Part shown: piece after piece, positions 3,112 to 30,393 of the stretch
How positions within the stretch are numbered: position 1 is the stretch's first letter
Layout: every line of letters begins with the position of its first letter
Assembly: GCA_007125845.1 (NCBI GenBank)
Contig: SLCK01000013.1
Location: 1-64,000, forward strand
Source: Gemmatimonadota bacterium
Lineage (GTDB): Bacteria > Gemmatimonadota > Gemmatimonadetes > Longimicrobiales > Gaopeijiaceae
DNA: 64,000 bases
Direction of reading: 5' to 3'
The notes under the pieces: generated by a model
Seen by the model: the letters and a program-made list of their open reading frames with translations, nothing else
What the model was told of the DNA's origin: nothing
Database searches by the model: none
Made by a program: the position numbers and the translations under genes

Positions 3112-4164
3112 TCATGTGTCAGCCGGGCGGGGGAGGTGCCCCCAGCGTTCGAGGTCGGCGAGGGCGTCGCCGAGAGTTTCCCGAAGCGGACGGTAGCTCA
3201 CTCCCAGGACCTCCTGGCTCTTCGAGTTGTCGACGCGCGGCACCCGACCCAGGTGGGTCCGAAGGTAGCCGCCCACGCCTCTCGGGCGCAGAAAGGACAG
3301 AAGATAGACGATCCGGTTGCCGACGGGGTTGTCCAGATCGAACCGCGGGAGGCGGTATCTCCCATCGTATCCTTCCTCCCGGAGGAGCTGCACGAGCTCC
3401 TCCATCGTGACGGTGTGCCCGGCACAGATGAACCGGCCCGAAGCCTTCGTGTTCCCCAATGCGCGGATGTGCACCTCGGAGACGTCCCTGACGTCCACGA
3501 CGGTCCAGGCCATGGCCATCAACACGGGATACTCACCCCGGAGCAGGTCGGCCAGTAGGGCGTTGGAGGTGTTCAGCTTCGGGGTGAGTGAGGGACCGAG
3601 GACGAGGAACGGGTTGATGACGACGACAGAAAACCCACCGGCCGGGTCGTGGAAGCGCCAGGCGGCACGCTCCGCCTGCACCTTCGAGAGGTGATATGGA
3701 TTCCGCTTCAGGGTCGATTTCTCATTCCAGTCCCGCTCGGTGAGGACCCGGTCGTTCTCCGGCTCGTCGGTGATCGCCGCGCCCGAAGAGGTCACGACGA
3801 TCCGCTCCACCCCGGCCGTCCTCGCCGCTCGGAGCACATTCTCGGTACCCTTCTCGGCCGGATCGACCAGCTCTTTCTTCGGATCGGATGCATGGAGAAA
3901 GTACGGGCTCGCGGTGTGTACGCAGTAGCGACACCCCTTCATCGCCTCCGAGAAGGAGCTCTCCTCCAGGAGTTCGCCCCGATGGAGGGTGAGCCGGTCC
4001 CCGGCGCCCGGAAGCTCCATCAGAAATCCGTAACGGTCCCGGTCCTGAGGGTCACGCACGGTGCCGCGGACGACCCGGCCGTCGGCCAGGAGGTCGGCCA
4101 CCACCTGCGCTCCCACGAAGCTCGAAGCGCCGGTGACGCAGATCGGGTCCTGGGGGTCGCCCAT
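3112..4164 (-). CDS. NAD(P)-dependent epimerase / dihydroflavonol-4-reductase-like protein
   Basis: A 350-residue extended short-chain dehydrogenase/reductase. The Rossmann motif TGASSFVGAQV is at residues 11-21, close to the N-terminus, and the catalytic Tyr-Lys pair sits in NPYHLSKVQAE (Y-x-x-x-K). The family reduces or epimerises small aldehydes, ketones and nucleotide sugars; the substrate cannot be read from sequence. I chose ATG 4164, preceded by AAAGAGG, instead of an ATG 24 codons upstream because the Rossmann strand then begins at residue 8, as usual. It is probably the first gene of the ring-cleavage operon (34-base gap), so a role on an aromatic or quinone-derived carbonyl is possible but unproven. 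Confidence 0.8.
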   Translation of the reverse strand: MGDPQDPICVTGASSFVGAQVVADLLADGRVVRGTVRDPQDRDRYGFLMELPGAGDRLTLHRGELLEESSFSEAMKGCRYCVHTASPYFLHASDPKKELVDPAEKGTENVLRAARTAGVERIVVTSSGAAITDEPENDRVLTERDWNEKSTLKRNPYHLSKVQAERAAWRFHDPAGGFSVVVINPFLVLGPSLTPKLNTSNALLADLLRGEYPVLMAMAWTVVDVRDVSEVHIRALGNTKASGRFICAGHTVTMEELVQLLREEGYDGRYRLPRFDLDNPVGNRIVYLLSFLRPRGVGGYLRTHLGRVPRVDNSKSQEVLGVSYRPLRETLGDALADLERWGHLPRPADT

Positions 4165-30065: not shown

Positions 30066-30095
30066 TTGCACTCCCCCGGGATGATCCGGTAGCTT
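30066..30095 (+). promoter_or_regulatory. Candidate sigma70 promoter of the 30.1-30.4 kb RNA
   Basis: TTGCAC (30066-30071) is followed after 18 bases by TAGCTT (30090-30095), placing a start of transcription near 30102. It lies 22 bases after the stop of the isomerase gene and points into the structured RNA. Read by eye; the -10 is only a moderate match. Confidence 0.45.
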
Positions 30096-30216
30096 CATTC
30101 CGTCCTCAGGGACTGGGCCGGAGGAGAATCTCCAGAGCGGGAAGCTCCTTCGGACTGCGGGTTCCCGAGCCCGCTGGCGTCAAGCCCGATGTCGACCCGA
30201 AAAAGGAGGTGATCCC

Positions 30217-30279
30217 TTGTCTAGCCCCAGTAGCCACTCCAGCCTAGCATGGGCAGGCGATCGCCGCTTCGGCCTCTAA
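30217..30279 (+). CDS. Possible 20-residue peptide behind a near-perfect Shine-Dalgarno sequence
   Basis: TTG 30217 opens a 20-codon frame (Ser-rich start, one Trp, ending DRRFGL, stop TAA at 30277-30279). Seven bases upstream is AAGGAGGTGATCC, complementary over 13 bases to the 3' end of 16S rRNA, far stronger than any other ribosome-binding site in the window. A 7-codon frame (ATG 30189, ending in AGG AGG TGA at 30212) runs through that site, so the two could be coupled. Codons of this frame form the 5' arm of the closing helix of the RNA, so translation and folding would exclude each other. I recognise no homologue; the frame could be incidental. Confidence 0.35.
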   Translation: MSSPSSHSSLAWAGDRRFGL

Positions 30280-30348
30280 CAGCCGGAACGATCGCAGCTG
30301 TTCACGCCGCGTGACGCGATCGCGCTAGGCTGGACGGCATGACGGAAG

Positions 30349-30393
30349 CAGGCCGTCGGTGGACTTTGAGTCCGCCGGCGGCCTGTTTTTTTT
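30349..30393 (+). terminator. Strong rho-independent terminator
   Basis: A continuous 16-bp stem (30349-30364 with 30370-30385, including two G-U pairs) with a TTTGA loop is followed directly by eight T residues (30386-30393). It is the clearest terminator in the window and works only for forward transcripts, because the reverse side has no U tract. It would end the orphan RNA and any ppsA read-through. Confidence 0.9.

Follow-up and report, generated by a model that had tools for sequence, protein, structure and literature searches.

A conserved RNA gene of Gemmatimonadota with an extended Shine-Dalgarno sequence and a short reading frame through its closing helix

The locus examined here raises the question of what is encoded between two unrelated protein genes in the analysed window, a stretch of 64,000 nucleotides from contig SLCK01000013.1 of a Gemmatimonadota bacterium. 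A sequence-only reading had described it as an orphan structured RNA that could be a regulatory RNA, a dual-function RNA or the mRNA of a tiny protein. We are highly confident that positions 30090-30393 of the window represent one copy of a real, conserved RNA gene, which was not catalogued before. The features of this gene are listed in Table 1.

Table 1. Features of the RNA gene in the window, with the evidence for each
Feature	Position	Strand	Evidence
Promoter-like pair TTGCAC-18-TAGCTT	30066..30095	+	Sequence; equivalent pairs similarly placed in relatives
Candidate 5'-terminal hairpin GTCC/GGAC, 5' domain	30102..30113	+	Sequence; like hairpins in relatives
5' domain helix, CCGGAGGAG (30118-30126) with CTCCTTCGG (30145-30153)	30118..30153	+	Covariation
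Hairpin GCGGG/CCCGC, 5' domain	30157..30174	+	Near-invariant in 38 aligned copies; variation too small for covariation
GCCCG, 5' end of core	30184..30188	+	Nearly invariant; could pair with GGGC of the bulge
Extended Shine-Dalgarno AAGGAGGTGATCC, 13 bases	30203..30215	+	GGAGGTGATC exact in 135 of 141 copies
20-codon frame MSSPSSHSSLAWAGDRRFGL, TTG start (30217-30219), TAA stop (30277-30279)	30217..30279	+	NTG start kept, no early stops
P1 closing helix, 5' arm (inside frame)	30238..30248	+	Covariation
8-base bulge ATGGGCAG with conserved GGGC	30249..30256	+	GGGC(A/G) in 138 of 141 copies
P1b 5' arm GCGATCGC	30257..30264	+	P1b 97% of cells paired, deep alignment
P2 hairpin, stop codon in loop	30268..30287	+	30268-30273 with 30282-30287; 82% of cells paired
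P1b 3' arm	30316..30323	+	Covariation, deep alignment
P1 3' arm	30324..30334	+	Covariation; pairs with 30238-30248
Intrinsic terminator, long hairpin and eight T (30386-30393)	30346..30393	+	Terminator scan; recurs in relatives

Transcription unit, neighbouring genes and distribution

The earlier view of this locus as a complete small transcription unit, with a terminator of eight T residues between the genes, agrees with the elements in Table 1, and both the promoter-like pair and the terminator recur in relatives. Transcription in the window is expected to start near 30102, as judged from the promoter-like pair. This pair alone is weak; it shares 6 of 12 consensus positions, and the scan did not report it. 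Upstream of 64 of 135 distinct copies there is a TTGnnn-16/19-TAnnnT pair that agrees with the consensus at 8 or more of 12 positions; base-shuffled sequence would give 3.5. The start predicted from these pairs lies approximately 105-117 bases 5' of the Shine-Dalgarno sequence in copies with the 5' domain and approximately 27 bases 5' of it in some copies without this domain, so that the RNA of the latter would begin just 5' of GCCCG. A strong hairpin is present downstream in 99 of 137 copies (1 in shuffled sequence) and is followed by a T-rich tail in 95. The gene would therefore specify a stand-alone transcript with its own promoter-like pair and terminator, as known for dual-function small RNAs.

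In the window, the neighbouring genes code for pyruvate phosphate dikinase, a PpiC-type isomerase and an AhpC/TSA-family protein, the last of which is located downstream on the opposite strand. The adjoining genes, which were named by eye from their translations, differ between families (AhpC/TSA-like, gcvH, kdtA-like, S9 peptidase-like, and others), and the downstream gene may occupy either strand. Since the neighbours vary, the RNA is not the leader of one gene, in line with the original suggestion that it is not an mRNA leader. The gcvH gene lies just upstream, on the opposite strand, at four loci of families f2, f4, and f9 (L098, L099, L103, and L107); this neighbourhood is possibly the ancestral setting.

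The term orphan does not hold for this gene. A DNA search gave matches in 46 of 59 relatives. Thirty loci were aligned, and a first covariance model, built from 29 of them, had matches in 175 of 295 genomes of a class sample and in 110 of 200 genomes of a phylum sample. According to a second model, built from 50 sequences, the gene is present in 237 of 395 sampled Gemmatimonadota genomes, nearly always as a single copy, with carriers in families f1-f4, f6, f7, f9, and f10. Most carriers identified by a pattern scan that returned names were Gemmatimonadota, Roseisolibacter sp. H3M3-2 among them. Some highly complete genomes contained no copy detectable by model or start-region pattern. The gene is widespread, but not universal, in this phylum.

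Two model matches were listed only for genomes G055 (L117 and L118) and G207. L118, truncated by the end of its contig, repeats L117, so the pair in G055 may be an assembly duplicate. Copies resembling those of family f1 were also found in two records named Gammaproteobacteria (L128 and L183; SB0662 and SB0675), which are probably mis-assigned metagenome bins.

The assessment that the RNA fits no standard family was upheld. No matches above the gathering score were obtained in the window with Rfam 15, the families of which include 6S, SRP, and RNase P, and only matches far below threshold appeared at relaxed E-values. A match to tmRNA (RF00023), which had been named as a finding that would speak against a novel RNA, was given in the window by neither Rfam nor ARAGORN; the genome possesses its own separate tmRNA at C1:86541-86905, above the cut-off. 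No description of the Gemmatimonadota RNA was found in a search of the open-access literature.

Secondary structure and covariation

The closing helix with its 8-base bulge (30238-30264 with 30316-30334) and the internal hairpins, as originally described, are present in the sequence. The covariance test in relatives that had been proposed for them was carried out, and double changes were far above both shuffled and slid controls. In a first alignment made without regard to structure, the named helices displayed 56 double-change cells versus 19.8 in shuffled and at most 20 in slid controls. In the deeper alignment, which was fitted to the model and hence favours it, the corresponding values for P1, P1b, and P2 were 239 versus 79.4 and at most 68. 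Both sides change at all 14 positions of the P1 pairs in the latter alignment, and double changes occur at all six pairs of P2. The closing helix is thus strongly backed by compensatory changes. Without the terminator, the core has an unremarkable folding energy (z = -1.05), so the evidence for structure is covariation; much of the low value of the whole unit (z = -4.34) comes from the terminator.

The window and many members of the order have the 5' domain, which part of the family and the deeper families lack. The helix of this domain had 75% of cells paired versus 57% in shuffled controls and 49 double-change cells versus 23.5, although its exact register is less certain because the same helix slid by one column scores almost equally on two measures. 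Just past the -10 box, the relatives contain hairpins that resemble the candidate hairpin GTCC/GGAC but vary in sequence. A possible pseudoknot would link the GCCC of the core's 5' end to the GGGC of the bulge; the sides of this candidate pairing are too invariant for covariation, and their loss across copies is only partly joint.

A second pairing is predicted to involve the ribosome binding site: GGTGATC of the Shine-Dalgarno sequence can pair with GATCGCC, which lies inside the frame in the 5' arm of P1b. Partition function calculations for 131 copies indicated that P1 dominates, with a median of 0.92, while the alternative exceeded 0.5 in 28 of them. Both partners are changed and the pairing is retained in L099 and L107. 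It is broken by C-A in L018 and L021, and by GATCTCC in several Gemmatimonadaceae. Judged by sequence, the kept frame overlaps both P1 and this alternative pairing; if the frame is translated, this layout would resemble that of an attenuator.

The Shine-Dalgarno sequence and the reading frame

The 13-base Shine-Dalgarno sequence reported originally is present in the window. The general bacterial 16S tail is complementary to it over 10 to 13 bases; the host's own tail was not found. Neither the genome's own assembly nor five relatives yielded a 16S 3' tail, and this absence is more likely to reflect missing rRNA than a different tail. The 16S 3' end pattern GGNTGGATCACCTCCTTN was unmatched in G000, G025, G023, G005, G085, and G104, even in single-contig genomes. 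The 3.2-Mb genome contains the 12-base core AAGGAGGTGATC at three places. Only here is this core followed by a start codon; the other two occurrences are located inside longer reading frames. The sequence GGAGGTGATC occurs 65 times; eight of these occurrences were inspected and were mostly inside reading frames. An origin from a 16S fragment was rejected, as the complementarity ends after 13 bases and the spacer past GATC varies. A viral decoy was also rejected: the start motif had four matches in viral contigs, which is about the chance level by a rough estimate.

The frame through the 5' arm of the closing helix was recovered as described. Among 141 copies, the collection of which itself required an NTG start after the Shine-Dalgarno sequence, the start codon is TTG in 131, GTG in eight, and ATG in two. 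Extended Shine-Dalgarno helices by which weak starts are supported have been described in Staphylococcus aureus (PMC13009471). The frame comprises 14-22 codons, and its changes in length are mostly of 3 bases. In 134 of 138 copies, the start and the bulge lie 31, 34, or 37 bases apart, and these 3-base changes occur in the separate families f1, f2, f4, f6, and f9. The distance departs from these values by something other than a multiple of 3 in L025, L102, and L103, where the frame is broken relative to the bulge, and in L224, which belongs to the separate marine RNA mentioned below. Within the first 17 codons of 82 distinct copies, the true frame contains no stops, as compared with 17 and 72 in the two alternative frames, and the stop codon lies 11-14 bases beyond GATCGCC in 119 of 138 copies. 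Only this first frame is kept. The second of the two small frames proposed initially begins with ATG at 30249, within the bulge, which usually reads ACG, AAG, or CTG in the copies.

The nucleotides of the frame are conserved and its amino acids are not. Of the single-base codon differences, a share of 0.23 is synonymous in the true frame; the other frames reach 0.37 and 0.39. The low share of the true frame is partly due to pairing constraints acting on the same bases, so the peptide may have a weak role. The simplest reading of these sequence comparisons is that selection acts on translation through the helix rather than on the peptide; with fair confidence, this would be a translated mini-frame whose product is probably not the point.

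Possible function and parallels in other bacteria

What may such an RNA do? The frame is kept and its amino acids are not, so translation seems to matter more than the product. Our leading reading, to which we assign somewhat less than an even chance, is that of a translation-gated RNA, in which ribosome loading would melt the closing helix and thereby report ribosome supply. The maximal Shine-Dalgarno sequence would capture a 30S subunit at the TTG codon, and the ribosome would read 14-22 codons through the 5' arm of P1 and stop in or near P2. With plentiful ribosomes, P1 and P1b would be held open. With scarce ribosomes or blocked initiation, P1/P1b would close, or GATCGCC of the frame would mask the Shine-Dalgarno sequence. 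We infer that translation opens P1 in the cell and that the translated and folded forms act differently, their balance reporting ribosome supply; most simply, these forms would act via stability or via a pairing or protein-binding surface exposed in trans. Against this reading stand the three copies with a broken frame, the copies that have lost the alternative pairing, and the highly complete genomes that gave no match. If confirmed, the RNA would be a sensor of ribosome supply that is genetically simple and works from its own locus, and the way in which bacteria measure free ribosomes would become testable. The gene is in any case a widespread RNA gene of this phylum, outside Rfam, with a conserved frame and a non-conserved peptide.

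Several other explanations were weighed. The stand-alone organization, the covarying helix of the 5' domain, and the changing neighbours would also suit a small RNA that acts in trans or has a dual function. Its structured 3' part or its 5' domain would then pair with mRNAs or bind a protein, translation being secondary and serving, for example, stability control. We consider this unlikely on balance, since conservation peaks around the ribosome binding site, the start codon, and the bulge rather than in an exposed seed, and the 5' domain is missing from many copies. Known RNAs of this kind (SR1, VcdRP, Pos19, and RNAIII type) likewise combine a stand-alone transcript, a small frame, and structure, but they encode functional peptides, whereas the residues of the Gemmatimonadota RNA are not conserved and display no synonymous excess. 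This same absence weakens the proposal of an mRNA for a tiny, strongly translated protein, made in the sequence-only reading; the product would be 14-22 residues long with a generic function, such as that of a basic, ribosome-associated peptide. The very strong Shine-Dalgarno sequence, the kept NTG start and frame, and a recurring A-(R/W)-A-(S/N)-(D/G)-R segment speak for it. The R/W and L/S/P exchanges, however, track single nucleotides, conservation at the third codon positions of the conserved segment is among the highest, and the peptides of L100, L108, and L111 are cut to 14 residues and lack the segment, which makes this explanation improbable. The peptides are polar and rich in Ser and Arg and do not resemble the small hydrophobic toxins encoded by type I toxin mRNAs.

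A decoy or brake that mainly ties up initiating 30S subunits, or that senses whether the 16S tail is intact, with translation incidental, would account for the complementarity kept in 135 of 141 copies and for the weak start codon. It needs neither an in-frame, stop-free frame nor a covarying helix across this frame, and very high expression would be required; we rate it as quite improbable. A leader or attenuator of a neighbouring gene, already disfavoured, appears very improbable. The combination of small frame, helix, and terminator resembles leader-peptide attenuators, and a similar RNA of Rhodobacterales does precede arfB, but the gene downstream of the Gemmatimonadota RNA differs by family and lies on either strand, being on the opposite one in the window. 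Attenuators of the trp, erm, and tna type share with this RNA a short frame over one helix arm, alternative pairings (predicted here), and a terminator; unlike them, it has no gene past the terminator, no regulatory codon run, and no conserved arrest peptide.

The reading as a translation-gated RNA has parallels elsewhere. Like tmRNA, the Gemmatimonadota RNA is structured and has a short frame that would be read by ribosomes; unlike tmRNA, it has its own Shine-Dalgarno sequence and start codon. In the leader of a DUF1127 gene of Sinorhizobium meliloti, a small upstream frame is proposed to monitor ribosome availability, and the ribosome binding site can pair with its own early codons (PMC12218461). 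There, translation of the frame and not its product controls the RNA, as would be the case in Gemmatimonadota. This leader acts on the downstream gene, as proposed via Rho (PMC12218461), whereas the Gemmatimonadota RNA has no such target gene downstream and ends in an intrinsic terminator.

The Rhodobacterales RNA has a AAGGAGGTGATCCAGTGTCTAG start region, an 18-codon frame (VSRxxLE(R/K)GVGT...), and a terminator, and its Shine-Dalgarno sequence pairs with a downstream anti-Shine-Dalgarno-like CCTCC. It is located directly upstream of arfB, a gene for ribosome rescue identified by motif (GGQ protein), in 20 of 21 loci (L122, L123, L130, L137, L139, L142, L145, L150, L153, L164, L165, L169, L170, L176, L179, L181, L190, L199, L200, L214, and L219). 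Five of these (L122, L130, L137, L145, and L200) were scanned with Rfam and gave no match, and the DNA of this RNA matched nothing in plasmids. Both RNAs possess the AAGGAGGTGATCCAGTGTCTAG start region, a mini-frame, structure, and a terminator, but the Rhodobacterales RNA has its own fold and peptide and precedes arfB. The Gemmatimonadota model gives it only 19-26 bits; homology was rejected, and this apparently unrelated RNA was treated as an analogue. The architectural parallel suggests that one role of such sensors, if confirmed, may be in ribosome rescue. We regard as rather doubtful the wider idea that the Gemmatimonadota RNA is the first described member of a group of free-standing ribosome-gauge RNAs, in which a frame behind a maximal Shine-Dalgarno sequence would exist only for translation and ribosome loading would set the fold, and which would have arisen more than once: in Gemmatimonadota, in Rhodobacterales, where it would control arfB, and perhaps in the marine bacteria represented by L151 and L224.

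The unit found at the two latter loci (in L151 on the minus strand, near 3370) is marine proteobacterial and consists of AAAGGAGGTGATCTA followed by ATG TCTAG... and a 28-codon frame. The arfB gene is absent downstream of this unit, which carries a helix, GTATCGACAA/TTGTCGATAC, and a terminator.
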